From a virus: a DNA stretch of 36,217 nt. Position numbers and translations under genes: made by a program. The stretch covers positions 1-36,217 of the IMG/VR virus record IMGVR_UViG_3300015263_000185; one strand, given 5' to 3'. Below, piece by piece: positions 2,002 through 33,762 of this stretch (positions are counted from its first letter, which is position 1; the number at the start of each line of letters is the position of its first letter). Under the pieces are notes generated by a model. The model did not search any database and had not been told where the DNA came from. It saw nothing but the letters and a program-made list of their open reading frames with translations.

Positions 2002-5000
2002 TCAACTCTCCACGGTCAGCTTCGGCACATCCTTACGTTCCGCATAAACGGTGAAGAAATAATCATACCCACCGCCATCTTCGTTGATGACATAGATCGT
2101 ATGATTGCTTATCATGGAGACAAACAACTTCTGATAGAATGCAATTGGTGTTAGGTTTACAGTGATCGTACCCTCATCCACCAGCGCCCACCAGTAATCG
2201 GGAAGCGTGATGATTCCAGTAGAAGAACGTCCGCGAACATAGACACCATTCTCCGGTCCTTCCAACGAACCATATTGCAGCTTCATTCCCGGCTTGGTTG
2301 GATGGTCAATCAAGAAGGACTTGCTTACGGCAGTAAACGCTCCCTCATTAGTGATTTGTGCAACAGTGGTTCCGTTTGCCCTAAAGCGAACGTTTCCTAA
2401 AGGATCAATGCCATACCCCATTTCAAGATTTAGATTCTCACTACCATCTACATGAATCGCAGCATCAATATTTCCACCACGGCTGAATAGAATGCCGCTA
2501 GAAACATCAAATCCTTTACCGATAATCACCCAATTTGTGTGACCACTACTCCATCCACCAATTCTTACATTGACGCTTGTAGCATTAGATACGGACAGGT
2601 TTCCTGTCGTAATGACATTACCAGTTACATATACGTTTGGACTGATAGTTAGAGTTGTTGTATTCAACTCCATATAGTCGCTAGCGCCACTATCAGCATT
2701 TGTCGCAATATAAAAGCGGTGTCCACCATTACCCTTGAAATAGGTATAGCTACCCTCAACACCGAAATTATAACCACTGGCTTGATTTAGACGATTGTCA
2801 TACAGGGATATCTTGTCACCAAGTTCTGCTCCAAAGTATATCGCACCTACCTTCATCTGACCAGTTGCAGCATTGAATGTCAGGTTAGCTGAATTTGCTC
2901 TAGCTGTCTGAGCAGAACCAACTGCACCGACTAGAACAGGATATGTTGTAGTGTCAGCCGATTCTTCTGTTGCAGTAATCGTGGTTGATGGACCGCTCGT
3001 TCCCTGAATACCCTGTGTACCCTGTGTACCCGTTGCACCTTGTGAGCCAGTTGTTCCTTGGCGACCTTGAATACCCTGAATACCTTGTGCGCCTGTTGCA
3101 CCTTGTGTACCCGTCGCGCCTTGTGATCCTGTTGCACCTTGTGCGCCAGTGGTGCCTTGCGTACCCGTTGCGCCTTGCGAGCCGGTAGTACCTTGGCGAC
3201 CTTGAATACCCTGAATGCCCTGCGCACCCGTAGCACCCTGAGTGCCGGTTGCACCTTGAGTTCCTGTCGCACCTTGTGTACCGGTTGCACCTTGTGTACC
3301 GGTTGCACCCTGCGAACCAGTGGTTCCCTGCCGACCCTGAATGCCCTGAACACCTTGTGCGCCTGTTGCACCCTGAGTGCCAGTTGCACCTTGTGCGCCC
3401 GTTGCACCCTGAGTGCCAGTTGCACCTTGAGTTCCTGTCGCACCTTGCGTACCAGTAGTTCCCTGAATACCTTGTGATCCAGTTGCACCTTGCGAGCCAG
3501 TAGTGCCTTGGACGCCTTGCGCACCCGTAGCACCCTGCGATCCGGTAGTACCCTGTACGCCTTGTGATCCGGTTGCACCCTGTGTTCCAGTTGTTCCTTG
3601 CACACCTTGAGTACCGGTAGCACCCTGTGTTCCAGTTGTTCCTTGCACACCTTGAGTACCCGTTGCGCCTTGAGTACCTGTGGTTCCCTGCCGTCCCTGA
3701 ATACCCTGAACACCTTGTGCGCCGGTTGCGCCCTGAGTGCCAGTTGCACCCTGTGTGCCTGTGGTTCCCTGCAATCCCTGTATGCCTTGCGCACCCGTAG
3801 CACCCTGAACCGTAGCTACACTGAAAGCAACGTTGGCATTGCCTGCGGCTGCGCCTGCTCCATCCGTGACAACAACAGATACGTTCTGAGTGTTGACGAA
3901 ATTCAGTTGACGCGCAGATAGTGTCGAACCACCGTTTGCAGACACGCGCACGGTATTTGCAACATTCGCGAGTTCGAACTTGACGTTGGTTGTACCGATA
4001 AACAGATTGGCGACATTGACTGTATTCGCTGTCGAGTTCGCGATCAGTGTTGCCTTAGCACCACCAACAGCCAGAGTTCCCGCACCCTTGTCAAAAGTCA
4101 GATTAGCGGAACCACCGAATGTTGTATCGTCATTATACTGAATGTGAGTATTCGAACCCCCCGGCTGAGTCGAGCCGCCGCCGCCCGTTTGTATAGAAGC
4201 GCGAGTGTACGTGTCAATGACTTCGACATATTGAAGTTCCGCGTAGTGACACTGAGAGTTTGCGCTAGATCGTCCGTTGTATGTGAACTTACCAACAATG
4301 ACCAACTCTTCTGGTGTTACGTCACCCCAACTAATTGTACTTGGTGATTCGGATACTGCCGATGCCAGAGAATTGTGAACATTCTGACCAGCCATGAGGA
4401 AGTAACGACGAGACTGTTGAATTTCTGTCGTTGCACACAGATACATGTTGACCCACTGACCTTGACCACCAGTGCTAAGTGCGGTCTTCTGCCACGTTGC
4501 ACCCGTATACTGGTTGTAGCAAATCGTAGTACCATCAGTCAGGAATGGAACACCCTTGGAGTCAACAGCAAACGTAGAGGTCTGAATAGTCGGACCACCT
4601 GACGTATTACTGCGCCACATGACACGATAAGTACCACCATCCGAAAGAACACCAGTATCCAACTGAATGTCTTCGTCCATGATACGAATCGAAGTCGCGG
4701 AGAACGTCACCGCATCGGTGTTAGACACATTAAGAGTATAACCTGCATACGTTGGCAATCCCGGCTTCGATGCGACCTTCGTTCCGTCGCCAAAGTGCAG
4801 ACGATAGTGCAACTCTGGATCACGATCAGCCGTGTGCAACTCCATCAGGGTTGCAGCAGATTCCTTAGTATCCGCATTATACGAAATCGTAGCAACAGGA
4901 CAGTGCTTCAACAAATCCCACGGAGAAGCTACGCATGTCAAAACACCATCTGCATCGAAGTAAACAAAGTATTCGTCGCTTACGTCAGCATGACTAACAG

Positions 5001-7467
5001 CTTGTGTACCAGTGAAAATCATGCGTCCATTATTGAACGTGTAAATTTCGAAATCGTCGGCAACCGGATAAATGGATACCTGTCGAGCAGCATCGTTATA
5101 TCCAAGCGTGACCTGATATCCTGTATCTGGATGATATGGGAAACCGAGGCGACTCTTCTTAGCTACGAAAGTATTTGCTACGTTCGCACCGCCGATATAG
5201 AGATTGGTGGTGTTGATTACATTAGCAGTGATAATGTTGGCTTCGACGGTATTACTCTCGGCATTAATACGAATTGTATTAGCACCAACGATGAGAACAT
5301 TGCCATTGGCTGTTGAGAACTTGAGATTAGCCGACGCACCAAATACGCCACCGTCGTTGTAAGATACTTGCTCATCCGCACCGGGAGAGGTGGAGAGAAT
5401 AGCGCCCTGAATACCCTGAACACCTTGCGTACCGGTAGCACCCTGAGTGCCTGTTGTTCCCTGCCGACCTTGAATGCCTTGTGTGCCTTGTGCGCCTGTC
5501 GCACCCTGAGTACCCGTCGTTCCCTGTACACCCTGAGTGCCAGTCGCACCCTGAGTACCTGTCGTTCCCTGTACGCCTTGAGTTCCGGTTGCACCTTGTG
5601 TACCAGTGGTGCCTTGAACACCTTGCGTTCCTGTCGCACCCTGAGTACCTGTCGTTCCCTGTACGCCTTGCGCACCTGTTGTACCTTGGCTACCCGTCGT
5701 TCCCTGCCGACCTTGAATACCCTGTACACCTTGGCTACCCGTCGTACCCTGAATACCTTGTGTGCCTGTTGCACCTTGTGTACCAGTGGTGCCTTGTAGT
5801 CCCTGAATACCCTGAATACCTTGCGCACCATCGGCACCCGCAGCACCACCGAGGTTTACATCCCAAACATTAAACGTACCAGAACCGGTGGTAGAAGCAA
5901 TTTCTGCTTGCATCGCACCAGTACCACTATCATAGGACGAAACCGTACCTTCCATAAAGGCAGAGGCACTATTAGCAATAACAACAGACTGACCAGCAGA
6001 ATATGAAAGACCACTTGCAACAGTCAGGCTCTTTGTGCCAGTACCAATCGTAAGAGAGGTCGCAGAAGTAGTTGCGTAACGATCACCAGCAAAGCCTTGT
6101 AGTCCTTGAGTTCCTTGTAATCCCTGAACACCTTGAGTGCCTGTTGTGCCTTGAGTGCCAGTTGCACCTTGCGTACCGGTAGTACCTTGTAGTCCTTGCA
6201 CACCCTGCGTACCAGTGGTTCCCTGTACGCCTTGCGATCCAGTTGCACCCTGTGTACCGGTTGTTCCTTGCCGACCCTGAATACCCTGTACGCCTTGAGT
6301 ACCAGTGGTGCCTTGTAGTCCCTGTGTACCCGTTGTTCCTTGCACACCCTGCGAACCAGTTGTTCCCTGTGCGCCTGTTGCACCTTGCGTACCTTGTGTA
6401 CCCGTCGCACCTTGTGTACCAGTCGTTCCCTGTACGCCTTGTGCGCCTGTCGTTCCCTGTACGCCTTGTGCGCCAGTTGCACCCTGAGTGCCTGTTGCAC
6501 CCTGAGTACCAGTAGTGCCTTGTAGTCCTTGAATGCCTTGTGCGCCCGTAGAACCTTGTGTTCCAGTTGCACCTTGAGTACCGGTAGTTCCCTGTAATCC
6601 CTGAATACCCTGAAAGCCAGTTGTACCCTGAACGCCTTGTGCGCCAGTGGTACCAGTTATACCTTGAACGCCTGTGGTACCTTGAATACCTTGTGCGCCA
6701 GTGGTACCCTGTGAACCTGTTGCACCCTGCGATCCAGTAGTGCCTTGTAGTCCCTGTGTGCCTTGAATACCTTGCGTACCAGTTGCACCCTGCGAGCCAG
6801 TGGTTCCCTGCCGACCCTGAATACCTTGCGTACCTTGTGCGCCCGTAGCACCCTGCGTTCCCGTTGCGCCTTGAGTACCGGTAGTTCCCTGTAATCCCTG
6901 TGTTCCTTGTGCGCCAGTTGCACCCTGAGTGCCTGTTGCACCCTGAGTACCAGTAGTACCTTGCCGACCTTGAATACCCTGAATACCCTGAACACCCGTT
7001 GCGCCTTGTGTGCCAGTTGCACCTTGCGATCCTGTGATACCCTGAATACCCTGTGGACCGAGCGCACCTTGCAGACCTTGTGTGCCGGTTGCGCCTTGAG
7101 TTCCTGTGGTTCCCTGAATACCCTGATTAGCAATACCCTGAGTACCCTGAACACCAAAATCACCCTGAATACCTTGTATACCCTGAATACCCTGCGGTCC
7201 TGCAATGGTACCCGCTACGTATAGTTCTACGTTCGCATTTCCACCTTCTCCTGCGGTGACAGCCACGGTAATGTCGGCTGTATTGACAAAGTTTACGCCA
7301 TTGGCATTAATGGTGGATTCAGAGTTAGCAGAGACAAGAATTTCAGATATACCACCACTTCCGAATGATCCTTCGGTTTTCCACGAATAACCATCCCACT
7401 CCCAAACTGTGCCGTCAGGAGCTACGAAGGTGTCGCCGGGATTAGGATTGATGGGGAAATCTGCCAT
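2002..7467 (-). CDS. Giant collagen-like tail fibre protein (1821 aa)
   Basis: The N-terminus ([26 protein letters not shown]) is a short domain common at the start of cyanophage-type fibre proteins. Three Gly-X-Y tracts follow at about residues 88-460, 543-689 and 1218-1490, rich in Gln, Thr and Ala and nearly free of charge. Between tracts lie a beta module (about 461-542) and a large globular region (about 690-1217), the latter with [14 protein letters not shown] and [14 protein letters not shown]. The C-terminal 106 residues (1716-1821; [20 protein letters not shown], then NGVYVRGR and [11 protein letters not shown]) form a domain I know from T4-like phage fibre proteins. No S74 SDxRLK motif is present. 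It should be a long homotrimeric fibre that reaches the host receptor. The largest gap in the window lies just upstream and may hold its own promoter. Confidence 0.9.
2997..3814 (-). repeat. Collagen-like Gly-X-Y tract 3 of the giant fibre
   Basis: About 273 residues of Gly-X-Y triplets between the central globular region and the C-terminal head, beginning VQGATGAQG and ending [15 protein letters not shown] recurs about four times. Confidence 0.92.
5402..5841 (-). repeat. Collagen-like Gly-X-Y tract 2 of the giant fibre
   Basis: About 147 residues of Gly-X-Y triplets between the beta module and the central globular domain, opening GADGAQG and ending GVQGIQG. Same composition as tract 1, including two GRQG triplets. 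Confidence 0.92.
5842..6085 (-). repeat. Beta module shared with the 973-aa fibre (copy in giant fibre)
   Basis: Residues about 461-542 carry [36 protein letters not shown] and the terminal WDVNLGG. Two close relatives lie inside the 973-aa fibre. It interrupts the collagen helix and probably forms a trimeric beta knob. Confidence 0.85.
6086..7203 (-). repeat. Collagen-like Gly-X-Y tract 1 of the giant fibre
   Basis: About 370 residues of uninterrupted Gly-X-Y triplets such as GTQGATG and [10 protein letters not shown]. At DNA level it is a degenerate short-period repeat (variants of CCTTG/CCCTG plus ACCAGT/GCCTGT on the plus strand). It predicts a triple-helical rod. Arg occurs only in the GRQG triplet, which recurs. 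Confidence 0.93.
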
Positions 7468-8328: not shown

Positions 8329-11250
8329 TTAACTCGTTATAATCAGATTCAGAGATACCGTGACACGATCCACCGTTACTGTTGGGTTGCTGTTGACGCG
8401 GAACTGAATGATGTTACCAGCAGCAATGACGGCTGAACTCCATCCAGTATTGTCGCCAGAACCCTTCTGCGCAGTTGCCAGTCTTGGAGTCTGCGCACCA
8501 CCACTAATCTTAGTCATGGTTGGGAAGTTGGTGTAGCTCGCAGTGTAGATATCAACGTTGATCGAACCAGAAGTGTTACCAAAAGCTTGCCAGCCACTAA
8601 TGACAGCCGAGTTAGCTACCATTATGTATCCCTTGGATTGTGCAGCTTCGGTAGCACCTGTAGTGATGGTAGTTCCACCACCATCAATGATATAGTTGAG
8701 TACGCGAGGACCGGCAGTACCTTGAATACCCTGTACACCTTGCGAACCAGTAGTTCCCTGTACGCCCTGTACACCAGTAGTTCCCTGAACACCCTGTACG
8801 CCAGTGGTACCCTGAACACCTTGAATACCCTGCGAACCAGTGGTACCCTGAACACCTTGAATACCCTGTACGCCAGTAGTACCCTGAACACCCTGCGAAC
8901 CAGTGGTACCCTGAACACCTTGAATACCCTGCGAACCAGTGGTACCCTGTAGACCCTGTACACCAGTTGTTCCCTGTAGACCCTGAATGCCTTGTGCGCC
9001 AGTGGTTCCTTGAACGCCTTGCACACCAGTTGCACCCTGAATTCCTGTGGTACCCTGTACACCCTGTGCGCCAGTAGTACCTTGTACGCCTTGAACACCC
9101 TGCGTTCCTGTCGCACCTTGAATGCCGGTAGTACCTTGTACGCCTTGTGCGCCTGTTGTACCCTGAATACCCTGCGTACCGGTAGCACCCTGAGTACCAG
9201 TGGTTCCCTGTACACCTTGTGCGCCAGTTGTACCCTGTGTTCCGGTTGCACCTTGAACACCTTGTGTTCCTGTTGCACCCTGTGTGCCAGTGGTACCTTG
9301 TACGCCTTGTGTTCCAGTAGTACCCTGAATACCTTGTGTGCCTGTTGCGCCTTGAGTGCCGGTAGTCCCCTGCACACCTTGCGCACCTGTTGCACCCTGT
9401 ACACCCTGTGTGCCTGTTGCGCCTTGTGTACCAGTCGTTCCCTGCACACCCTGTGCGCCAGTAGCACCCTGTGTACCAGTTGCACCTTGTACGCCTTGTG
9501 TACCGGTTGCGCCTTGCGTACCAGTAGTGCCTTGGACACCTTGTGCGCCTGTCGTTCCCTGAATACCTTGCGTACCGGTTGCACCTTGTGTGCCGGTAGT
9601 ACCCTGTACGCCTTGCGATCCAGTTGCACCCTGTGTTCCAGTGGTGCCTTGAACACCCTGAATACCTTGCGAGCCAGTGGTTCCCTGAATACCCTGCGTA
9701 CCAGTTGCACCTTGTGTACCAGTCGTTCCCTGCAATCCCTGAATACCCTGCGGACCATCTGCACCGGGAGTACCGCCGAGGTTTACATCCCACGATGCGA
9801 ACGTGCCAGTACCAGTGACGCTGGAAACCTGAACAGACATTGCGCCTGTGCCAGTTACATAGGAGATAACCAGACCTTCCAGAGAGTGTGTCGCATCATT
9901 AGCGATAACAACAGTCTGACCAGCCGAATATGCGAGTCCAGTACCAACGGTTAGATTGAGAGGATTACCCGCTGGATAATTTTCAATTGTAATTGAGGTA
10001 ACAGATGTGGTTGCATAGATATCGCCGGGAGAACCGAGAACACCTTGCAATCCCTGAATACCTTGTGCGCCAGTTGATCCCTGTACGCCCTGAGTGCCAG
10101 TTGCACCTTGAGTTCCGGTAGTGCCTTGAACACCTTGCGCACCTGTAGTTCCTTGAACACCTTGTGTACCCGTTGCGCCCTGTGTACCAGTCGTTCCCTG
10201 AATACCCTGCGAACCAGTAGTGCCTTGAACACCTTGTGCGCCAGTTGCACCCTGCGTTCCTGTAGTTCCTTGAACACCTTGTGTTCCGGTAGTTCCCTGA
10301 ACACCTTGAGTGCCAGTAGTTCCTTGAACGCCTTGTGCGCCTGTTGCGCCTTGTGTACCAGTAGTACCCTGTGCGCCTTGCGCTCCGGTAGTTCCCTGTA
10401 CACCTTGCGAACCGGTAGTTCCCTGCGTACCTGTGGTGCCTTGAACACCCTGAGTGCCGGTAGTGCCTTGTACGCCTTGTGTACCAGTCGCACCTTGCGT
10501 TCCAGTAGTTCCTTGTAGACCCTGAATACCTTGTGGTCCGTCCGCGCCGGGAACACCACCAAGGTTTACGTCCCACGATGAAAACGTACCAGTACCAGTA
10601 ATCGTAGTAACTTCAATTACGATTGCGCCAGTACCAGAGTCATACGATGTGATTGTACCTTCCAGAGAATGTGTCGCATCATTTGCAACGATGATTAGCT
10701 GACCAGCCGAGTAAGCAAGTCCAGTTCCAATCGTGATATTAAGAGGATTTGCAGCAGGATAGTTTTCAATCGTAATCGAATTTGAAGAGGTCGTTACGTA
10801 TTGGTCGCCGGGTTGTCCGAGAACACCCTGCAATCCCTGAATACCCTGTGTACCCTGAACGCCGGTTGCGCCTTGCACACCAGTCGTTCCCTGCACACCT
10901 TGCGAGCCAGTCGAACCCTGTACGCCTTGCGCACCCGTAGTACCTTGCGTTCCTGTTGCACCTTGTGTGCCAGTAGTGCCTTGTATGCCATCGGTTCCCT
11001 GTGTACCCGTCGCACCCTGTGTACCAGTTGTTCCCTGAACACCCTGAATACCCTGCGCGGCATACAGTCCATCAAGTCCCTGAACACCCTGCGCACCGGT
11101 TGCACCTTGCGCACCATCCGCGCCAATATAGCCAGAGGAACCCTGAATGCCATCGGCACCCTGCGGTCCCGTTAAGCCTTGCGCTCCCGGTGCGCCAGCC
11201 GATAGCCCTACTCTACCAACTGCATTCTGTTCTGTAACAGTTACTTTCAT
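8329..11250 (-). CDS. Collagen-like tail fibre protein (973 aa)
   Basis: After a short N-terminus ([16 protein letters not shown]) the protein is almost entirely Gly-X-Y: tracts at about residues 18-145, 234-402 and 494-846, separated by two copies of a beta module (about 146-233 and 403-493). The C-terminal domain (847-973; [40 protein letters not shown]) resembles a beta-sandwich head. The start overlaps the upstream stop as ATGA, coupling it to the Ig-like 111-aa gene. Unlike the giant fibre, its tracts contain no GRQG triplet. It is probably a second homotrimeric fibre or a whisker-like appendage. Receptor unknown. Confidence 0.88.
8713..9769 (-). repeat. Longest collagen-like tract of the 973-aa fibre
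   Basis: About 352 residues of Gly-X-Y ([17 protein letters not shown]), with more Val and Ile in the X position toward the C-terminus ([10 protein letters not shown]). Two shorter tracts lie at 10045-10550 and 10816-11199. Confidence 0.92.
9770..10044 (-). repeat. Beta module copy 2 in the 973-aa fibre
   Basis: Carries [38 protein letters not shown] and SWDVNLGG. It is nearly the same as the copy at 10551-10815 and more distantly like the giant-fibre copy at 5842-6085. Confidence 0.88.
10551..10815 (-). repeat. Beta module copy 1 in the 973-aa fibre
   Basis: Carries [38 protein letters not shown] and SWDVNLGG. Flanked on both sides by Gly-X-Y, entering via GQPGD and leaving via GADGPQG. 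Confidence 0.88.
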
Positions 11251-11582
11251 TGACTGACCTGTGGCGTAATGGTAATGATGCCTTCAAGAACGCGAATGGT
11301 GCGATCATCATCCGTGGTCATCTTAAGATCATACAAATAGCGTCCAGCACGAATGTTGGCTGTATTAGCAGCATCCAGTCCTAGTGTAACGTTGCCATTC
11401 GCAGCATCAGCCACAGTAACAGTCAGATTAGCTGTTGCGTTGGAAGAGTAATAAGACTTACGAATCTGGCAGACAAAGGAATAACCGGTAACGTCAATCG
11501 GCGTGGCGTCATCGTTGGTCAAGTCCACGCTACTTGAAAACGTGGTTCCCTGATCCATTGTAAGTTCTACGTATAGTGCCAT
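11247..11582 (-). CDS. Ig-like/BppU-type small tail protein (111 aa)
   Basis: Pattern [20 protein letters not shown], then [39 protein letters not shown] and LEGIITITP. This matches a widespread small phage protein with an immunoglobulin-like beta-sandwich related to the N-terminal domain of BppU-type baseplate proteins. In other phages such proteins sit directly before fibre genes and are thought to be appendage adaptors. Here it sits just upstream of, and overlaps by ATGA, the 973-aa collagen-like fibre. A GGAAGA site precedes the ATG. A 28-nt gap separates it from the sulfotransferase gene. The link role is an inference. Confidence 0.78.
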
Positions 11583-11610: not shown

Positions 11611-12315
11611 TTAGGAGAAAGTTATGCCCTTGCTGGCGAGGAAAGTATAGTCTTCCTGACAGTATGCCCGAATCTCCGACTCCTCGCTTGGCGATAGGCT
11701 GTCGAGTTGCGGATCAAGCGTCACGCCATTCAACTGTGGAATGGTCACTGTACTGATATCCACATCGAACTCAGCCAATAACGTCGCCATTTCAGTATTA
11801 AAGTTATGGTAATTAAGTGGTATTACTCCATCAGTCAGCCACGGCTTGTGTGTCTTCGCGAACACGCCCCTCTCAAAGAAGTAGCGGAATTTTCGGAAAA
11901 CCTCAATAAGCGGAATCTCATCGTGTAGCTGCTTCATTTCTGGCGTCCAGTCCTCATAGGCTAGACGAGAGGTACACTTGATCCTTACGTCATTACCCCA
12001 AAACGCATGAAAGAAGCGAGCGTGTAGGCGACCACGGCGAAGGTGATTGACGCACGAAATCACTCTGTCAAAAGGATCACGATAGAACGCAAAGACCTTG
12101 AACGTGGACAAATTCTGAGCGTTTACTCCCTTTCCACGAAACATGGGATGGTCATCACCAGCTTGAGCAAACTTGGTCACATCATTCATCGTGAAGTGAT
12201 TGATGTTACGAACGTCAGCCGAAACTCCCGCCTGACGAAAAACCTCGTAGCGAGTATGAGTTCCTGTGCGCGGAACATCAAGTACAATTATTCTTTTAGG
12301 TATGGATACGATCAT
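11611..12315 (-). CDS. Sulfotransferase-family protein (PAPS-type P-loop)
   Basis: This 234-aa protein has the layout of cytosolic/Sulfotransfer_2-type sulfotransferases. RIIVLDVPRTGTHTR (residues 8-22) fits the 5'-phosphosulfate-binding loop, usually 'hiPKTGtts'. NHFT (39-42) sits where these enzymes often have a histidine segment. FAFYRDPFDRVIS (75-87) fits the 3'-phosphate-binding motif 'FvRdPydRlvS'. KTHKPWL (154-160) and the C-terminal YCQEDYTFLASKG also fit family habit. Known members transfer sulfate from PAPS to sugars, proteins or small molecules. The start is ATG overlapping the upstream TGA (ATGA), so it is translationally coupled to the 111-aa gene and the glycine-rich adhesin. 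Substrate unknown; the P-loop Lys is replaced by Arg, so activity needs testing. Confidence 0.78.
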   Translation of the reverse strand: MIVSIPKRIIVLDVPRTGTHTRYEVFRQAGVSADVRNINHFTMNDVTKFAQAGDDHPMFRGKGVNAQNLSTFKVFAFYRDPFDRVISCVNHLRRGRLHARFFHAFWGNDVRIKCTSRLAYEDWTPEMKQLHDEIPLIEVFRKFRYFFERGVFAKTHKPWLTDGVIPLNYHNFNTEMATLLAEFDVDISTVTIPQLNGVTLDPQLDSLSPSEESEIRAYCQEDYTFLASKGITFS

Positions 12316-12647
12316 GACACATTAAACCTATAAAGCTTTTTATTCCTACCTACCAGTGCCTTAGTATTTTCATCCTGACTGTCGAGAAGCGTGTTATCGT
12401 GCTGATCAATCCAACCAATCACAACCCCCTCATCAACCTCGTCAAATGGAATGAAGTTTCCCGGCGTCGGTGCTGGCAGAATCAATTCGTGTACCGATGA
12501 TTGAACTGGTGTTCTTGGAAGATTCATGTCTATGTCGCGAGTCACGATCATATAGACGATCTTATCCCACACCTTGTCCTGCAACGAAGGATCAAAATGC
12601 CATGTGGACTTGTCAAACAAGACATTTACGTGATGTATTAGAATCAT
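12312..12647 (-). CDS. Small phage protein (111 aa), possible fibre-assembly or adaptor protein
   Basis: The start is taken as ATG at 12647 (MILIHHVNVLFDKS), because it overlaps the upstream TGA as ATGA and has GGAAG upstream. A longer reading from 12665 would begin with TTG and is less likely. The C-terminal half has FIPFDEVDEGVVIGWIDQ, similar to a 'F.pf..lte..VigWv' motif in small proteins found beside phage tail genes. No catalytic motif or membrane segment is seen. It sits between the glycine-rich adhesin and the sulfotransferase, coupled to both. A role in adhesin folding or as partner of the enzyme is only positional inference. Confidence 0.72.
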   Translation of the reverse strand: MILIHHVNVLFDKSTWHFDPSLQDKVWDKIVYMIVTRDIDMNLPRTPVQSSVHELILPAPTPGNFIPFDEVDEGVVIGWIDQHDNTLLDSQDENTKALVGRNKKLYRFNVS

Positions 12648-13984
12648 TTTGTGTCTTCCGTCCAAACTAAAGCATACGCATAAACATTACAATACACATT
12701 CGCCACCGTGACGTTATCGCTTCTTCTGCGAAATGCCAGATATCCTTTCATGTAAGAAGTTGTGGTACCATTACCGAATTGGTCTGCGTAAAGCAACCAT
12801 TTTGGATTTGTGCTGGCTTGTATCCATGTATTTGCAGATGAACTACCAGCCGTCATAGTAGTTCCAAATTTAATTACAGGATTCCATAGAACGTCAAAGT
12901 CATCAGTTAGGGTTGAATAGGCAATAGTTTTAAATCTTTCCATCCAACGTTGCACATCATTGCTAGGGCTTCCATCGGTCAAACCCGCGTAGAATATGCC
13001 GTTTGCAGCGATGTTTATGCTAGAATATGCTGTTGCACTCCCGCCTGCGCTGTTTTCGGCACTACCATAGAACAAGAATGCGTTGTAATCATAAATGCCA
13101 TTTGGCACGTTGTTGGCATAATAGCCTATTGCATCCGCACCCTTAAAATCACTAATCTTTAACGTACCACTGGTAGGAATCTTTCCACTGTCACCAACAG
13201 CACTTGGTGGAACATAGGAGCCACCTGACAAGAATGAACGAAGTGTTACTCCACTTGTCCTTTTACCATACCAAGTGAATACAACCTTACCTTGTGCGCC
13301 AGCACCACCAACGACACCACTGGAATATCCCGGTGCGCCGCCGCCCCCCGGTGCGGTACCAGCCGCGCCGCTGGATGAACCACCAGCACCACCATTTGCA
13401 CCAGTTCCACCTGTGGTTGTTGTTCCATTAGCTCCCGCTTGACCAGTACAATTTGGCACCAATACGGCACTACCACCATCCGAATCTATAGTAGTAATAT
13501 TTTGATCTGGTGCGCCGCCGAGTGAATAAAATCCACCGGTTGATGGAGCAACGTTATATCCCGGTTTACCACCGTATGCATATAGTGTGCCTACAAAAGT
13601 ATCATCTAAACCGGGAACACCATTAGCGTGACTAAATCCACCCGTCGAACCTATACCACCAGAACCAGTGACAGCCGCACCACCCGCTCCACCATTACCA
13701 ACGCGATATCCCATGGTGGTGACACCACCTTCTACTGGAACAATATATGATACGTAGCCACCGCCACCACCACCGTATTGTGAGCCAATGGAATTGTACC
13801 CGCGACCACCGCCACCACCACCCCAAAGCTCAATCTTACACCAAGCAGCAGTGGATGGTGCAGTAACCGAGCCATTGGCAACTGTCGTGAAAGTATCAGT
13901 TCTTACGATAGATGAAGAATCATAAGTGTACGCATTGATAACATCAGTAAGCTTGATTGGATATGAATTAGCCACGCGAGGCAT
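12644..13984 (-). CDS. Glycine-rich tail-fibre adhesin (446 aa)
   Basis: Residues about 54-245 contain dense Gly clusters (LWGGGGGGRGY, YGGGGGGYVS, GGAGG, APGGGGAPGY), a pattern seen in Gly-rich phage receptor-binding proteins and in gp38-type adhesins of T2-like phages, where poly-Gly helices display variable loops. A short N-terminal segment (ANSYPIKLTDVINAYTYDSS) probably docks to a fibre, and GTLKISDFKGA (about 270) is a motif common in phage glycine-rich fibre proteins. The C-terminal 170 residues are a beta-rich domain ending YALVWTEDTK. GAGGGG lies before the ATG, which follows the S74 fibre gene directly. Probably the receptor-recognising tip for that fibre (inference). Confidence 0.82.
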   Translation of the reverse strand: MPRVANSYPIKLTDVINAYTYDSSSIVRTDTFTTVANGSVTAPSTAAWCKIELWGGGGGGRGYNSIGSQYGGGGGGYVSYIVPVEGGVTTMGYRVGNGGAGGAAVTGSGGIGSTGGFSHANGVPGLDDTFVGTLYAYGGKPGYNVAPSTGGFYSLGGAPDQNITTIDSDGGSAVLVPNCTGQAGANGTTTTGGTGANGGAGGSSSGAAGTAPGGGGAPGYSSGVVGGAGAQGKVVFTWYGKRTSGVTLRSFLSGGSYVPPSAVGDSGKIPTSGTLKISDFKGADAIGYYANNVPNGIYDYNAFLFYGSAENSAGGSATAYSSINIAANGIFYAGLTDGSPSNDVQRWMERFKTIAYSTLTDDFDVLWNPVIKFGTTMTAGSSSANTWIQASTNPKWLLYADQFGNGTTTSYMKGYLAFRRRSDNVTVANVYCNVYAYALVWTEDTK

Positions 13985-13985
13985 A

Positions 13986-14288
13986 TTAATTCCCCTCTAG
14001 CTTCTTGACTCTTTCGTTCAATTCCTTGATTGCTTCGATGAGTACCGGAACCAGACGATCATAAGTGATTCGTAGATATCCTCTGTCATCCGTGTAGATA
14101 GCCTCTGGAAGAACATTTTGAACTTCTTGTGCGAGCAATCCAATCTCCAAGCGGTCAGGACGTTCACGATCAATGATACCAATATCCTTTGCGTGTTCAT
14201 TCCACCTGTAGTAGACGCCACTCATGGTGCATAGCTTGAAGGTTGCTTCTTCAACCGTACCCTCAACACTCTTGAGTCGAGCGTCCGA
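13986..14288 (-). other. S74 intramolecular chaperone autoprocessing domain
   Basis: Codons for residues 866-965. The predicted cleavage is just before Ser866 in TSDARLK, giving an approximately 865-residue mature fibre and a released chaperone of about 100 residues. Conserved GLLAQEVQ and the helical end [12 protein letters not shown] are present. Confidence 0.9.
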
Positions 14289-16883
14289 AGTTGCGGAGAA
14301 GTCCGTCGCACTCAGAGTACCAGAACTGTAAATCAGAATAGAGGTACAGCAACGTGGCGTCTGGTTGGAACCGGTGGTTGCAACCATGACTGGATAGTAC
14401 GAACCGCTGGAATATGCCGAAGCAAGAATAGCGGTAGACGGACCAGTGATACCCTGAATACCCTGTACACCGGTTGCACCTTGCGCACCAGTCGAACCGG
14501 TTGTACCAGTTGTACCCTGCGCACCGGTTGTACCCTGTGAACCAGTCGTACCAGTTGCACCCTGTGTACCGGTTGCACCTTGAATACCTGTTGCGCCAGT
14601 CGTACCTTGCGCACCAGTCGTACCTTGTGCGCCTGTTGCACCCTGCCGACCCTGAATACCTTGCACACCCTGCGCACCGGTTGCACCCTGCGCACCGTCA
14701 ACACCAATCGTGCCAGCAGTACCTTGCACACCTTGTGTACCCGTTGCGCCTTGCGAACCGGTTGTTCCTTGGCGACCCTGAATACCTTGAGTACCCTGTG
14801 CGCCTGTTGCGCCTTGCGTACCCGTAGTACCCGTAGTACCTTGAGTGCCGGTTGCACCCTGCGTACCCGTTGCACCTTGTGTACCAGTGGTACCTTGCAA
14901 ACCCTGAATACCTTGCGCACCGTCAGAACCAATATAACCCGCAGTACCCTGTACACCCTGAACACCAGTTGTGCCTTGTGCGCCAGTGGTTCCTTGTGGT
15001 CCCAACAGTTCAGGATTCGAAGAGTTTGCAGTGAAAGTAATGTTAGCATTACCCGCCGCACCACCCGCGCCTGCCGACACAGCAACGTTAATGGATGCTG
15101 AGTTAACAAAGTTCAACTGAACCTGTGAAATCGTAGCCGTACCATTTGCCGAAACGCGCACTGTGTTAGCAGCGCCGTTGGCTTTAGCGTATGCAGCTAC
15201 CGCGTTATCGTTTGCACCCTTAGTGAGAGTCAGAGTTGCAACGTTGCCGGAATCCGTAGCATAAGCCGTCTTAACATTTGCCAAGCTGAGAATGGTATTA
15301 CCAGTTGGATCAGCCAGATTGTTAGCACTTAGTTTCCATGCCCACGCAGCAGAATCAAACAGGATTTGTGCATTACCATTAGCACCACCCTGATTTACAC
15401 CAAACCAACCATCACCCTTTCCGCTGGAAGCGGCACGAAGACGATAAGAAACTTCGTTAGATTCAGCGGGAGCCGAAAGAGAACCACTTACTGTCAGGTC
15501 AGTGACCAACAGATTTGTGATGTTAGCCGTCGCCGCATTCATACGAGTGGCGAAGTTACCCACATCAATCTGCGCATTCGCTATTGCAGCATTTGCAATA
15601 TTTGCATTGGCAATGTTAGCTACAGCACCAGCCGCACGAACATTCAACGTAGCGACATTTGCAGTTGTTACGTTGATCAGGGCGGCATTCAGGCGAGTAG
15701 TAACATTACCAGTGAGAATGTTAATGTCACTTAGTTCAAGCGTTCCGATGTTAGCTGTTGTTGCGTTGAGGCGCGTCTTGACGTTCGCCACATAAACTTC
15801 TGCGTTAGCTGAGTAAACATTCGCAATGTTACCCACAGCAATGTTGGCTGTGGATGACACATTCAGTGTAGCTGCGTTAGCCTGACCGGTCACGCGCAGA
15901 ACGCCACTCTGAACGTTGGCTGCGGCTACGTTGCTTACAGTCAGATTAGCAACAACGGCTTGCGCACCCGAAGCATTGACATTCAGTGTTGCAACGTTGG
16001 CTGTGGTAATGTTAGCAAGAACCGCATTAGCGCGAGTGGTAACATTCAATATGCCAGCGGCAGCATTGGTAGTCACACTGTTAGCAATGGATACGTTGGC
16101 AAAGTTGGCTACGCCACCCGTTGCGGCTACATTCAAGCTACCGACATTTGCGGTGACGATGTTAGCCAGTACAGCATTGGCGCGAGTGGTAACATTCAAC
16201 ATCACTGTCTGAACGTTCTGAGCGGCTGCGTTGTAGATGGTCGCGTTAGCAACCGTAGCAATTGCGCCGACAGCATTGACATTCAATGTAGCTACATTTG
16301 CGACAACGATGTTGCCAGTTGCAATGTTAGCCAATTCCGAAACCACCAGATTTCCAGTGGTGCTGTTCTGCGTGACAACCAGATTAGAGGTTACATTGAC
16401 CGCATAATTGGTATTAGAGTTGCCCACAGTCAGGACATTAGCTACATTCAGCAACAGATCATTGTTGGAATATACGCCAGTCGTTTCAATGAAACCGTTG
16501 GCGTTTATGTTTGCGGCTGAGATAAAGACATTATTGCGGAAATAGACCGTGCTGGTATTGCCGTTGGCATGGAAACTTCCAGTCCTTTCGCGGAACTGAA
16601 TGTCAGGAGAGTCAGAATAGAAGAATGATCCACCACCGTCCTGCTGGATGTTCTTGACTTGCAACTGTCCAGCAATCTTGGCATTAGCAGTAACGTCGAG
16701 CGAGGTTCCACTTGTGCAAGCCAAAAGAAGCGGACCAACGTTAATACGAACGTTTCCGGTAGGCTTAATGAAGTTGCCGCGAGCAATCTCATTGAGGTCA
16801 TCTTTAGCTAGGTTGGTCTGTATTACCCACTCACCAAACGTGTTGGTGGTTTGAACCGCACCAATATTAACTGTGTCTGTCAT
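13986..16883 (-). CDS. Tail fibre with collagen-like tract and C-terminal S74 chaperone domain (965 aa)
   Basis: The N-terminal 120 residues form an attachment region. Residues 179-441 are built of 50-residue repeats rich in ANV/LNV. A short globular segment (about 485-625) contains GWFGVNQGG and [10 protein letters not shown] Gly-X-Y tract spans about 626-811, and the C-terminal 100 residues are the peptidase S74 intramolecular chaperone: SDARLK at 866-871, then [15 protein letters not shown] and [19 protein letters not shown], a terminal coiled coil. In this family the chaperone trimerises the fibre and then cuts itself off at the Ser of SDxR. It would be a homotrimeric side fibre. The Gly-rich adhesin gene follows at once. 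Confidence 0.93.
14448..15008 (-). repeat. Collagen-like tract of the S74 fibre
   Basis: About 186 residues of Gly-X-Y, opening [11 protein letters not shown]. Period slips to hexamers ([19 protein letters not shown]). It contains two GRQG triplets, as in the giant fibre. Confidence 0.9.
15900..16349 (-). repeat. Three contiguous 150-bp (50-residue) tandem repeats in the S74 fibre
   Basis: Units cover residues 179-228, 229-278 and 279-328, with a fourth, separated unit at 392-441 (15561-15710). Units two and three both open [14 protein letters not shown]. All contain TANV or VANV followed by xxLNV at the same register. They predict a regular elongated beta structure. Confidence 0.85.
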
Positions 16884-29666: not shown

Positions 29667-31721
29667 TTAACTCTGTACTACGCCGACTCTAATATCAATT
29701 GCGGCTGGATCGGTATCGTCCAGCGTCAAAATTGCGTTGCGGGTTGTCGAGAAAACGTTGGTGTTTGGTGAGGCTTTAAAGGTCATCGTGCCAAACGGAT
29801 CATTCACGAAAGTCGGCGCAAACGAGTCGAGGACGATATAGCCGTCATCATAGTAGATCGTTCCCACGTTGTTATTGATCACGCGCTTGATGTTGTTTAC
29901 GTCATAGTAGAACGTGCGCAGCGTTCCCTTCTTGCCCTGTAGAACAGCCCGAAGTTCCGCGCCGCTTCCACCGCCACCTTCTACGCGAACGACGGCTGCG
30001 GAATAACCCGAACCTGAATTAGTCACAACGACGGACTTGAGCTTGCCGTTGATAATGACCGCACTTGCAGCCGCGCCTTCTCCGTCGCCTTCGATAGTGA
30101 CCTTCGGAATGTCCGTATACTGGTCGCCCGTCGCTAGAACGGTGATTTCGTCAATGCCGGTAAAGGACTGCGGGACTTCTTCGATGAACGCGGTTCGCTC
30201 TACGCCATACTCGTCAATGATGCCGAAAGACGGCGACGAATAAAGCCGGTCCAGCGCGGTTCCTTTCCGCAGCGGCACGTAAAAGTCAATTCTGTAACTT
30301 TTCGCTTGATTCAGCAACGGACGGAAACGCTTCTCTATCAGGACGCGAATACTGTTATTCTGAATGCTCGGATCAGCCTCGTCTACTGCGCGAACCAGCT
30401 TGGACATGCGGAAGGTGTTATTAAAGGTGTTCAAATACGTATTAGCGAAACCTTCCACCGCTGCCCGAACAGCCGTGTTGATTGCGCCTGCGGTCTTCGT
30501 GGTCTGGCGCGGATCGTACACTACGTCAATCACAAAGTTCATGTAGTTGTAATCCGGCGCGACATACTCGGGCGTTACGGTCAGGACGGAAATCGGCTTC
30601 AATACGTTGTCCTTCATGTACTGAATTTCCGTCTGCGTGACCTCGTAGTTTCCACGCGGCTTGCAAGAGAAGAAAATCTTGCCGTATACTGGCGGGTCGT
30701 TCTCTTCGCCGCCCCACACCGAAACCGAGTCGAAGTACGGATAATTCTTATTAATGAGTGCTTCGTAGTCGTTCTTCGTCACAGCGCGGTTTTGGGCAAT
30801 GAAGGACTTCGGCGCGGTAAAGCGAATGGATTCGATATCTTCCGCTTGCTTTCCTGATGAACTTTCCTGCGTTACCGTGACCACTCCCGTAGAACCCGGC
30901 TTTGGATTGCTGCTTAGGCGGAAAGTGCCGATTCCGTTCGCTTCGTCGCCGCTCGTAACGACATAGCTGACCAGCACCAGATTGCCGTCATCCAGAGCCT
31001 TGCCAATTACGCCGTCGCCAAAGTAAATCTGATAGCGCCCGTTGCGGTTTTCTTCCAGATAGTAGACCGGATCATCCGAGACTACCGAAGTTGCGTCTTC
31101 CGCGAGTTCGAACGTTTCCAGCGAGTAGTTGTCCGCACCTTTCTGCACCTGAACTGTAATTGTACTTGTATCAATGCCCTCGTCTGGCAGTTCGAAAATC
31201 TGCTTGCTGTTCGTGTCCGCGACATAGGCAAAGACGTAGCTGACGGGGTTTCCTTCCTTGATCGTGACGGATTCGAAGATAAAGTCGCTGTTTGCGTCCT
31301 TTGCCACCGTGCGCGACTCTATCGTGACAAAGCTGTAACTCTTGCCGTCCTTCGGTGCGCTCGTAAACTTCGTGAACTTCGGCAGCGTCATGGAAGAGTT
31401 TGCGCCGCCGACCACTTCCGCGAACTTTACGTCAATAATGGCTTGGCTGGCTACGCGGCTTCTTGGCGTGTATCCGAGAAGCTTTGCGTGGGAAACGACG
31501 GACTGCCGAAGCTGCGCGGTGTCTATGAACATTTCGTTGCCGACCATGTTCATGTAGTAGCCCATGTAGTGCGTGTTGTATGCGAGAACGTCCAACAGCA
31601 CCGACAACGCGCTTCCGTCAAAGTCGTAGTCGGTAAATTCCGGCTGGCTTCTCAGGAATTCCTTGAGGTTCGCTTTGATTGAGTCAAAGTCGAGTTCTGT
31701 GATGCGAATTTTCTGTGCCAT
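29667..31721 (-). CDS. 6: Baseplate wedge protein gp6 (baseplate J-like)
   Basis: At 684 aa (T4 gp6 is 660) this has the J-like wedge N-terminus: LKEFLRSQPEFTDYDFDGSA (20-39), then LLDVLAYNTHYMGYYMNMVG and EMFIDTA. In gp6-family proteins this helical part packs in the wedge ring. RFTAPKSFIAQNRAVTKNDY and the following INKNYPYFDSVSVWGGEEND are the typical mid-domain of baseplate J/gp6 proteins. The C-terminal quarter carries an added beta region with GxGY repeats (NSGSGYSAAVVRV). gp6 forms the dimeric iris ring that joins the six wedges. The ATG follows the gp25 stop directly with no spacer. Confidence 0.93.
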   Translation of the reverse strand: MAQKIRITELDFDSIKANLKEFLRSQPEFTDYDFDGSALSVLLDVLAYNTHYMGYYMNMVGNEMFIDTAQLRQSVVSHAKLLGYTPRSRVASQAIIDVKFAEVVGGANSSMTLPKFTKFTSAPKDGKSYSFVTIESRTVAKDANSDFIFESVTIKEGNPVSYVFAYVADTNSKQIFELPDEGIDTSTITVQVQKGADNYSLETFELAEDATSVVSDDPVYYLEENRNGRYQIYFGDGVIGKALDDGNLVLVSYVVTSGDEANGIGTFRLSSNPKPGSTGVVTVTQESSSGKQAEDIESIRFTAPKSFIAQNRAVTKNDYEALINKNYPYFDSVSVWGGEENDPPVYGKIFFSCKPRGNYEVTQTEIQYMKDNVLKPISVLTVTPEYVAPDYNYMNFVIDVVYDPRQTTKTAGAINTAVRAAVEGFANTYLNTFNNTFRMSKLVRAVDEADPSIQNNSIRVLIEKRFRPLLNQAKSYRIDFYVPLRKGTALDRLYSSPSFGIIDEYGVERTAFIEEVPQSFTGIDEITVLATGDQYTDIPKVTIEGDGEGAAASAVIINGKLKSVVVTNSGSGYSAAVVRVEGGGGSGAELRAVLQGKKGTLRTFYYDVNNIKRVINNNVGTIYYDDGYIVLDSFAPTFVNDPFGTMTFKASPNTNVFSTTRNAILTLDDTDPAAIDIRVGVVQS

Positions 31722-32120
31722 TTAGCGAATTCTCTCTAAGAAAAGTGTAATTGTGATTGGGTTCGCTTGGTTCACAATGAAGAACGTAAGCGTGACCGAA
31801 TAGCCGTTGTTGTCATAGTCGGGCGTGACGTTTACCGTAGTGAGGTCTACTCGCGGTTCGTGCTTGCCAATCGTCGTGCGAATCTCTGCGGCAATCGCGC
31901 TGCCCGTAATGCTGTCCACCGGTTCGAAAAGGTGTTCCCGCAGCTTGCTATGAAGATTCGGTTGCCAGAGCCGCTCAAAGCGCCCCGTCTGTAGAAGCCC
32001 CGCGATAGACTGCATGATGGCTTTCTCGCCCGTCTTTCGCGCAACGTCGCCCGTTACCGGATGAGCGGCAAAGGTAAAGTCGAGGTCTTTATAGGTGCGC
32101 GTTATAAGGGAATTAGCCAT
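31722..32120 (-). CDS. 25: Baseplate wedge protein gp25
   Basis: The product matches the GPW/gp25 family: TYKDLDFTFAAHPVTGDV, AIMQSIAGLLQTGRFERLWQP, LREHLFEPVD and the conserved EPRV near residue 90, followed by a C-terminal beta hairpin. Taking ATG at 32120 (MANSLITRTYKD) gives 132 aa, the same length as T4 gp25, and an 8-nt overlap with the upstream gene. An alternative ATG at 32132 adds MKTI. gp25 sits at the inner ring of the wedge, where it helps start sheath polymerisation. It precedes gp6 without a gap. Confidence 0.93.
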   Translation of the reverse strand: MANSLITRTYKDLDFTFAAHPVTGDVARKTGEKAIMQSIAGLLQTGRFERLWQPNLHSKLREHLFEPVDSITGSAIAAEIRTTIGKHEPRVDLTTVNVTPDYDNNGYSVTLTFFIVNQANPITITLFLERIR

Positions 32121-33762
32121 TATCGTCTTCATCCACGATTGCGATCTTCGTTGTGCTATTTAGTGTAGATTCCAAAGTAGTATTAGCATTGGCGTCTTCG
32201 TAACCCTGCGCCAGCCCGTAAGCAATCGTCAAAGCTTCCGACTTCTTGCCGCACTCCACAAACGAATTCCAGTCGGTGTTAATGCTCTCCTGTATCAGAT
32301 TGGCTCGCGTGGACATGAGGGCTGACCATGAATTGATCGTCGCGGACTGATTAGCTAGCGGAGAAACCAGAAACGATCCCGCAGTCAGAACTCGCAGCAT
32401 GTCTTTCATTTCCCGCGCAATGTTACGGACGACAACCGCGTTATACAGGGAGCCGCTCTGATAGCGAATGTAGTCCACGCCGTCATTCAGAAAGTTCGAT
32501 AGCGTCTGATGGTTTTCTATAATCTTACTTTGGCTTATCTTGGAGTAAGACGCTGCACTTCGCGAGACTTGCAGCCGCGTTCCGTGTATGACGAAATCCG
32601 TATTGTCCGCAGTGGTCGTAGCCAAGACTTCGATGTTGCCCCCGTAAAGGCGAGTCGTAAAAGTGACGAATGGATTTTCCGAATACATGGCTGCGATTTC
32701 GCGAGTGTAGGCGTGGTGTCCATCGTGCAATATGTAAAGCTCGTTGACCTGATGCCCACGATCCGCGTCAGCCGCAGTCGCCTGTATGAGATACTTGGCT
32801 GAACGGAACTTTCGCGCATTGAATCGGAAGATGATCTGCGGACCACCGGAAAGTCCATAGAGATTCAGATACTCCTGTGTGCTATCCGCAGTCGCTTCGG
32901 CATTCGGGCTATCCTCGTCCAGCGTTAGTCCCGACAACCGATTAGTGTGATCCAGAAAGGCGTCCAACTGAGCCACGCATCCAGAGAGTCCGTCCGGTCC
33001 ACCGATAGCCTCGCGAAGCATACGATACTCGGTGTTCAGGGATGGATTGGAAGACACGCCCGATAGCGCAGTATTCAGATTCGCATAGTTGCCTTCCGTA
33101 TAGTAGAAGAGCAGATCACGCATGGAGTCAATGTCAGCCGCTAGCGGATTTTGCGAGAATGTCGTAAGACCAGCCTGTAAGCCATTGGCATTCGCAGCCG
33201 CAGTCAGTGCCAGCGCGATCAGTGCGTTACTCATCATGGGCGCAAAGGGCGCTTCCACGGCATTGTACGTCATGGGAGCTTCGGTGACTTCCTCTGCGTC
33301 CAGTGCGTCAAACTCGGGATCAATCTCGTCATCCAGCACTTGCGAATATGGGACGATGACCGTGTTTGCGGGAGCAGCGGCAGCGGTGTAGGTGATCACT
33401 TCACTCGATGAACAGGCAGAAGTTGAAAAAGTTACCGTTTTCGGGTATAGCTTCTTACCCGTCCGTATTACCGTCTGTGTTTCAGTGCTAATCTGGACGT
33501 TGGGCAGCATCGGTGGATACAGATTGAGTATGATTCCCTTGTCCTTGGCAAGCTTGTATAGCTCATAGTTGATGGCTTGTAGGTCTGAGCGTATGCTGTA
33601 CACCCAACCCGTATAGTATCCCGACAGCCCATTCAGTGTATCCTCAAGCGTATGAGTGGCTGCGCGTAGCTTGATGGCATCCCTCTCGGTACGCAGGACT
33701 GTACGATAAGCATCTTGAGCTTTCGTATATTTTACTAAATTCTTGTCTTCTGTGAGTCTCAT
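32113..33762 (-). CDS. Structural protein of unknown role in the baseplate cluster (549 aa)
   Basis: The N-terminal 80 residues are helical and charged (TEDKNLVKYTKAQDAYRTVL). A low-complexity acidic region lies at about 140-160 (DDEIDPEFDALDAEEV). Residues 310-400 form a recognisable beta domain (RSAKYLIQATAADADRGHQV, ELYILHDGHHAYTREIAAMY, GGNIEVLATT). I know this domain pattern from neck, tail and fibre proteins of T4-like cyanophages. The C-terminus is helical and Ala/Asn-rich. The ATG overlaps the spike gene's stop as ATGA. Its position between the gp5-like spike and gp25 suggests a baseplate or spike-associated role, but I cannot assign a T4 counterpart. Confidence 0.75.
   Translation of the reverse strand: MRLTEDKNLVKYTKAQDAYRTVLRTERDAIKLRAATHTLEDTLNGLSGYYTGWVYSIRSDLQAINYELYKLAKDKGIILNLYPPMLPNVQISTETQTVIRTGKKLYPKTVTFSTSACSSSEVITYTAAAAPANTVIVPYSQVLDDEIDPEFDALDAEEVTEAPMTYNAVEAPFAPMMSNALIALALTAAANANGLQAGLTTFSQNPLAADIDSMRDLLFYYTEGNYANLNTALSGVSSNPSLNTEYRMLREAIGGPDGLSGCVAQLDAFLDHTNRLSGLTLDEDSPNAEATADSTQEYLNLYGLSGGPQIIFRFNARKFRSAKYLIQATAADADRGHQVNELYILHDGHHAYTREIAAMYSENPFVTFTTRLYGGNIEVLATTTADNTDFVIHGTRLQVSRSAASYSKISQSKIIENHQTLSNFLNDGVDYIRYQSGSLYNAVVVRNIAREMKDMLRVLTAGSFLVSPLANQSATINSWSALMSTRANLIQESINTDWNSFVECGKKSEALTIAYGLAQGYEDANANTTLESTLNSTTKIAIVDEDDNG

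Follow-up and report, generated by a model that had tools for sequence, protein, structure and literature searches.

Phage sulfotransferases are already known (phrog_3347), and their role has been called unclear in print. As set out in part of PMC11625862, and similarly in PMC9372746, sulfotransferases have Ser in the 3′ site and use His or Glu as the catalytic base; the same part of PMC11625862 gives Lys in the 5′ loop, or Arg as in mycobacterial Stf0. Tyrosylprotein sulfotransferases (TPSTs) act on proteins, according to a section of PMC9372746. The label sulfotransferase has also been given to PAPS reductases (in passages of PMC2920897 and PMC10269572), and the protein described in part of PMC10269572 is CysH-type, yet encoded downstream of tail-fibre genes. 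Elsewhere, a sulfotransferase is named with replication genes (in a passage of PMC13299392) or entered as an auxiliary gene (in a passage of PMC8290583). In the open-access PMC literature searched, judged partly by listings, we found no sulfotransferase of this family tied to adhesin genes and no description of the multi-copy adhesin-cassette form reported here, which we regard as new.

A sulfotransferase-family gene in a tail-fibre cassette

We analysed a viral DNA stretch of 36,217 nucleotides (the window; IMG/VR record IMGVR_UViG_3300015263_000185) and confirmed that an intact sulfotransferase ORF, encoding the protein P0001, lies in its tail-fibre cassette (Table 1). The minus frame is open from ATG to stop for 234 codons, and the plus frame of the same interval is stop-rich. 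The 12.7 kb around the gene match a segment of a 172,580-base IMG/VR contig (G001) at 99.99% identity, and there the copy of P0001 has one changed residue (I187S) and an equally intact ORF. The preliminary description had placed the gene between a Gly-rich adhesin and a collagen-like fibre gene in the same direction, and this arrangement holds, all neighbours being on the minus strand. On the right of the window, three baseplate/tail genes were tested.

Table 1. Features of the window around the sulfotransferase gene, with the basis of each assignment
Feature	Position	Strand	Basis or remark
Sulfotransferase-family protein P0001	11611..12315	minus	234 aa; profiles and modelled fold
5′-PAPS-binding loop VPRTGTHT, residues 14-21	12253..12276	minus	residue 16 is Arg
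3′-phosphate-binding motif FYRDPFDRVIS, residues 77-87	12055..12087	minus	Arg79 and Ser87 conserved
His40, candidate catalytic base	12196..12198	minus	conserved in 31/32 rows
Gly-rich adhesin	12644..13984	minus	PF21722, E=5.3e-8
Adhesin C-terminal tip domain, last 150 aa	12647..13096	minus	common to adhesins beside enzyme relatives
DUF7936-like small protein, 117 aa (111 from ATG)	12312..12665	minus	E=4.8e-5, under cut-off
Fibre-assembly-like protein	11247..11582	minus	phrog_1084, E=4.4e-29; phrog_3304 'L-shaped tail fiber protein assembly'
Collagen-like fibre protein	8329..11250	minus	PF01391, E=3.2e-102
S74/collagen fibre	13986-16883	minus	ORF run right of adhesin
Further collagen-like ORF	2002-7467	minus	by eye
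Baseplate/tail gene	34798-36096	minus	phrog_350
Baseplate/tail gene	31722-32132	minus	phrog_261
gp6-like baseplate/tail gene	29667-31721	minus	similarity to gp6

The DUF7936-like ORF has a TTG start and a likely ATG at 12647, and its relatives also directly precede a sulfotransferase in two other contigs (L012 and L045). Its stop overlaps the start of the sulfotransferase gene as ATGA (gap -4), which had been taken as coupling of the two genes. The overlap itself is real; its special meaning did not survive. The enzyme starts between -23 and +8 nt from the upstream stop in all 19 junctions measured, of 34 copies; this spacing is also possible for 47 of 68 other junctions from six loci, so the overlap is ordinary. 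Tight gene coupling is weak evidence here, and what lies upstream is sometimes a gene other than an adhesin gene. The window also encodes a LamG/ConA-like lectin protein at 1254-2000 (PF13385, E=1.1e-12); in G001 (65333-68765), this lectin gene is followed by what appear by eye to be two more diverged copies.

Family assignment, modelled fold and PAPS site

Taken alone, the profile matches of P0001 are suggestive only: it matched PF03567 at E=0.0017 over residues 6-88, its 19 bits not reaching the cut-off of 22, and gave a weak partial match to phrog_3347 (E=0.023 over 27 residues, 70-96). As a direct query it matched nothing in the phage genome collection or the PDB and only the same virus in viral contigs; three pattern matches in genome contigs yielded no confirmed relative. 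The route to relatives ran through the neighbouring fibre-assembly-like protein, which as query led to seven phage loci, including L010, where three ORFs are related to P0001 by phmmer (2.9e-13, 2.5e-9 and 4.4e-7, among 457 ORFs). Profiles built stepwise from A1 through A2 to A3 were run on viral contigs and genome contigs, and A4 comprises 32 aligned proteins, near copies included (L010/L015 and the sphingomonad set). The genome contigs contributed seven loci, five titled Novosphingobium, Sandarakinorhabdus, Sphingomonadaceae or Erythrobacteraceae, one Rhizobium and one Betaproteobacteria MAG. Searching four relatives by tblastn against the phage genome collection gave no match, and the A4 profile found nothing significant among PDB sequences, its best hit (0.17) being a sulfotransferase.

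The relatives match the known families better than P0001 does. Two of those in L010 reach the PF03567 cut-off (10944-11528 at 24.7 bits and 11986-12549 at 22.0), and half of the aligned A4 members (16/32) match this family at E<=0.01, the best at 4.8e-10. Furthermore, phrog_3347 was matched by all 12 A2 members at E<=0.1 and by 22 of the 32 A4 members at E<=0.01 (best 1.7e-10).

AlphaFold2 with the A4 alignment of 32 relatives produced a model with a pLDDT of 90.0 and a pTM of 0.87; the single-sequence model of P0001 had a pLDDT of 37. The best 50 Foldseek matches in the PDB all had the sulfotransferase fold, one of them being a retinol dehydratase of that fold, with E 4.7e-3 at best, a probability of 0.96 and TM ~0.4. 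At E<=0.001 there was no match in the PDB and there were six in the viral structure library, headed by a 'Sulfotransferase family' protein of an uncultured Caudovirales phage (E=1e-10, TM 0.71-0.74). Re-alignment of the Foldseek matches by a second aligner (VIA-align) gave PAPS sulfotransferases in all 50 rows shown (Z 7.9-10.1). Heparan sulfate enzymes spanned Z 10.1-9.3, with the 2-O-sulfotransferase (4ndz_C) at Z 10.1 (rmsd 3.3, 175 residues aligned), N-deacetylase/N-sulfotransferase at 10.0 and 3-O-sulfotransferase at 9.9, and SULT1C3, at 9.2, ties with them by the aligner's own note. Identity to P0001 was 12-15% in the top two re-aligned rows. No tyrosylprotein sulfotransferase stood among the 50 rows shown, which excludes nothing. 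In this structure search, set beforehand as the refuting test, P0001 was not placed in another P-loop family. Because the relatives match PF03567 better, four key residues are conserved (31-32 of 32 rows) and a sulfotransferase fold is modelled, the assignment goes beyond chance, and the membership of P0001 in the sulfotransferase family, as first proposed, is secure.

Both PAPS-site signatures of the preliminary description are present, VPRTGTHTR at residues 14-22 and FYRDPFDRVIS at residues 77-87, and the model places a strand (73-78) and a helix (81-94) around the latter. The first strand is modelled at residues 2-4, and given this strand and the PAPS loop at 14-21, P0001 has no N-terminal extension and is expected to remain cytosolic. 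When the 32 rows were re-aligned, position 16 was occupied by Lys in 27 of them and by Arg in five, with nothing else; Gly18 is kept in 30, His40 and Ser87 in 31 each, and Arg79 and Pro81 in every row. TPSTs with solved structures have PRSGTT at the 5′ loop, that is, Arg. The replacement of the P-loop Lys by Arg had been read correctly, but the loss of activity suspected from it is weakened by the Arg of five relatives, the TPSTs and Stf0, and the residue is probably not the sign of a dead enzyme.

His40 would be the natural candidate for the catalytic base. It lined up with a His of heparan sulfate 6-O-sulfotransferase in a non-significant profile match (E=0.28). With heparan sulfate 2-O-sulfotransferase, hhalign aligned only the 3′ motif; we therefore only infer that His40 may be the counterpart of that enzyme's base. 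Regarding selection, the seven sphingomonad-type genes form 21 pairs, all with dN/dS of 0.15-0.34; the ratio was 0.07 in an L010/L015 pair and, for a different type, 0.29 between L010 and L013. Nine pairs at greater distance were saturated, and the window copy has no relative near enough, so selection is known from the relatives. By these ratios, the relatives are under purifying selection.

Genomic setting of the relatives

After merging of near-copies, seventeen contig groups were obtained, not all independent, since G008 and G009 are close relatives; L046, L047 and L058 were assigned to the groups of L045 and L057 because their matches agreed in length, identity and E-value. In ten of the 17 groups (G001, G006, L013, G009, G008, G003, L043, L044, and the L045 and L049 groups), a fibre-type gene, recognised by its tip domain, by collagen repeats or by a tail-fibre profile, lies on the same strand no more than 3 kb upstream. 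Three more (the L052 and L059 groups and L017) would be added on Gly-rich composition alone, which is weak evidence. The rule-based scan used stop-to-stop frames, which overlap, and so passed over the immediate tip neighbours in L035 and L043; these two were taken by hand from the list of tips. Four groups are without a fibre neighbour: in L014, the enzyme occupies the same slot before an HExxH protein and gp13, with upstream genes unrecognised; in the L051 group, the gene before it encodes the major head protein (phrog_138, E=6.6e-145); and L048 (kinase-like) and the L057 group (no recognisable genes) had neighbour roles judged by eye. The second copy of L049 likewise has no fibre-type neighbour.

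Several contigs carry more than one copy: three in G006, G008 and G009, and two in G003, L013 and L049. Two or three diverged copies lie in one cassette in G006, G008, G009, G003 and L013. A second, diverged copy in G001 (70526-71137; L035 10526-11137) stands directly behind a tip-domain adhesin, three genes before gp13. The nearest relative of the window's copy by type, 43% identical, is found in L012 between an HExxH protein and gp13.

Other features of these contigs were observed in passing. In L051, L054 and L061, a relative lies directly 3′ of the major head protein gene (phrog_138 for L054), a hint at other virion targets. T4-like relatives encode, directly before or near gp13, a zinc-protease-like HExxH protein of ~100 aa, recognised by eye (L012 7705-8004, L013 1871-2173, L014 3583-3873, L015 4269-4571, L036 8170-8466, L043 2359-2658 and L035 11599-11916). 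A GIY-YIG-like homing endonuclease ORF (L015 7306-7815; motif by eye) lies among neck/terminase genes and is absent there in the close relative L016.

Nine adhesin genes near the enzymes share a C-terminal domain of ~110-150 aa (pairwise phmmer up to 93 bits). The tip of the window adhesin matches that of L012 best, at 21-23 bits, and is not convincing with several others of the nine. The tip profile was made from these nine genes, all at most two genes from an enzyme, and its independent matches are only those in L043 (7e-30), L045 (1.6e-5) and gp13-anchored loci. In five of five contigs (L012, L013, L010, L015 and L043), one enzyme type comes immediately after one and the same tip type, with 49-59% identity between the enzymes of the more distant contigs. 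The tip is a protein of 145-151 aa in the first four. The L043 tip (79-104 bits to the L010, L012 and L013 tips) is joined to a different N-terminal part, which has an EYGGSNP motif, and the enzyme still stands behind it, so tip and enzyme have remained associated through change in the rest of the adhesin. Checking thus weakened the overlap evidence and strengthened the tip-enzyme evidence. The copy type found in the window has no fixed adhesin partner, its L012 relative following the HExxH protein. A common N-terminal anchor of sphingomonad and T4-like adhesins was considered and dropped, the match being weak. Two cassette adhesins of L010 (10069-10944 and 1182-2879) have a Hint-type domain at their C-terminus (PF01079, E=4.6e-7 and 2.6e-5), and a Hint-type C-terminus is apparent by eye at L012 4881-5714, an odd feature for a tail-fibre tip.

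Among the seven contigs found through the fibre-assembly-like protein with the enzyme disregarded, five carry the enzyme (G001, G003, G004, G006 and G009, not G002 or G005), four of them in a fibre cassette. In 80 gp13-anchored phage loci (61 with at least 1.5 kb upstream, 36 with at least 5 kb), the enzyme was found in none at E<=0.05 and the tip domain in four at E<=0.01; the tip therefore does not need the enzyme. The gp13 sample was drawn from a candidate list limited to 600 rows and lacks all known carriers, and the other sample is also small, so these counts are no estimate of prevalence. The enzyme gene is thus an accessory with a patchy distribution, present in some lineages.

Relatives in named phages were reached via the fold library and then by profile searches of eight records, three of which were matched by the A4 profile and three by PF03567 at E<=0.01; phrog_3347 matched none of three records, in which positive controls were equally silent. 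By profile or fold, ACG-2014f, P-SSM7, SIO1 and S-T4 carry a relative. In cyanophage ACG-2014f, two relatives (E=2.0e-14 and 5.7e-9) are part of a nucleotide-sugar/glycosyltransferase cluster, with a tail fibre gene 1.8 kb after the nearer one. The P-SSM7 relative is directly 3′ of the gp5 baseplate hub/lysozyme gene, and that of S-T4 (PF03567 only) is beside a gene annotated as a nodulation protein. In the cultured Roseobacter phage SIO1, gp5.1 is preceded by gp7 and gp6, both tail-fibre genes, and followed by gp4, which PHROGs identifies as a terminase. The neighbours in these four phages are adhesin, hub or glycan-type genes rather than genes of sulfur assimilation. The ACG-2014f cluster (L086, 5959-15912) holds nucleotide-sugar epimerases, an aminotransferase and glycosyltransferases with the two relatives, possibly a sulfated-glycan pathway.

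Candidate targets and comparison with known systems

The explanation that we tentatively prefer is that P0001 is an active cytosolic PAPS-dependent sulfotransferase, made with the fibre genes, that modifies the virion adhesin of the same cassette. The enzyme would be produced in the cytosol together with the fibre proteins, probably late, and would take sulfate from PAPS made by the host: neither PAPS reductase nor APS kinase was found in any of the six records searched (five carriers and G005, mostly fragments), which would leave the host as the source of the donor. Sulfate would then be placed, before or during virion assembly, on a side chain or carried glycan of what is presumably the adhesin, and the charge and binding of the receptor-binding tip would thereby be altered. 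If one substrate is to be named, we would choose the adhesin, since the enzyme is repeatedly found beside adhesins, increases in copy number with them, and in one type accompanies one tip. The earlier suggestion that sulfation is a new way to tune adsorption draws some support from recurrence in other fibre cassettes. That adhesin-matched sulfotransferases, up to three per cassette, sulfate receptor-binding tips and so diversify their charge and receptor specificity without any change to the adhesin sequence is a further step that we consider rather unlikely. Against the adhesin as substrate, the closest solved structures of the model are mostly glycan enzymes, though with Z differences within ties. 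The sugar-cluster setting in ACG-2014f, the four groups that lack a fibre neighbour, the loose association of the window's copy type with adhesins and the gp13-anchored loci that have the tip but no enzyme also count against it.

An alternative that we rate almost as highly, though it too is doubtful, is that the same enzyme acts on a glycan of the host surface, or on the cytosolic precursor of that glycan, masking the receptor against further adsorption or progeny binding. The enzyme would then travel with the receptor-binding module whose receptor it alters, and its linkage to receptor-binding genes fits this too. The top structural rows, those of heparan sulfate 2-O-, N- and 3-O-sulfotransferases, favour such a target, tied as they are with SULT1C3, as does the PHROGs family name Galactose-3-O-sulfotransferase; the ACG-2014f relatives in their sugar cluster would also fit a glycan. 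However, the gene stands among virion genes, which are probably expressed late, when little host glycan is still made, and copies beside different adhesins in one cassette would be unexpected with a single glycan. Moreover, the surroundings of the window's copy contained no recognisable glycan gene; the glycosyltransferase family PF00535 occurs in two of the same six records, its one match in G001 being at 111 kb.

It is improbable that the target is something else altogether (a small molecule, lipid, head protein or host protein) and that fibre cassettes are merely recombination-prone islands of accessory genes. The patchy distribution, including the empty gp13-anchored sample, would suit such islands, as would the general tightness of gene packing in these phages, the four groups of 17 located elsewhere, one adjoining the major head protein, and the P-SSM7 relative behind a baseplate hub gene; the invariable pairing of one enzyme type with one tip, kept despite a differing N-terminal part, and the ten groups in fibre cassettes argue against it. 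Still less probable is a catalytically dead or binding-only relative, for instance a sulfoglycan-binding protein or chaperone, or a decaying moron: the P-loop Arg and the weak Pfam match can be cited for it, but Arg occurs in other sulfotransferases, the PAPS-site residues and His40 are conserved, the relatives are under purifying selection, and the ORF is intact in the 172-kb contig as well. Sulfotransferases use up PAPS and do not feed assimilation. A role as an auxiliary gene of host sulfur metabolism, the class to which viral sulfotransferases are assigned in parts of two surveys (PMC12285232, PMC13079714), is therefore hardly credible for a gene that sits in a fibre cassette, in five carriers whose records, mostly fragments, yielded no genes for PAPS reduction or APS phosphorylation.

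The recurrent position behind adhesin genes turns the preferred adhesin target and its main alternative into a testable question, namely whether the virion adhesin or the receptor is sulfated. Recurrence in other bacterial viruses suggests that they may chemically decorate their attachment parts or the surface to which they attach. If the adhesin is sulfated, phage host recognition would bear an enzyme-made chemical layer invisible to sequence-based host-range prediction.

Compared with described systems, the relatives of P0001 resemble phrog_3347 by profile; its name is an annotation, and the galactose acceptor is in the name only. PSSM7_018 of P-SSM7 and gp234 of ACG-2014f bear the same product name in their records, but, unlike the window's gene, they lie after the hub/lysozyme gene and in the sugar cluster, respectively, not behind an adhesin. 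With PF03567 and heparan sulfate 2-O-sulfotransferase, P0001 has in common the PAPS-site motifs, the modelled fold and a conserved His between the two motifs. It has no visible membrane anchor, whereas metazoan polysaccharide enzymes are Golgi-anchored, as stated in part of PMC9372746. TPSTs share the Arg of the 5′ loop (PRSGTT) with P0001, and the candidate base here is His. The catalytic base of TPSTs is Glu. SIO1 gp5.1 is a very distant relative (A4 profile E=0.0047, with no PHROG match at E<=0.01 and no PF03567 match), and is nevertheless alike in its sulfotransferase fold (BFVD TM 0.56/0.68, E 8.1e-3) and in following the tail-fibre genes gp7-gp6, across a 408-nt gap; it offers an opportunity for testing in a cultured phage.
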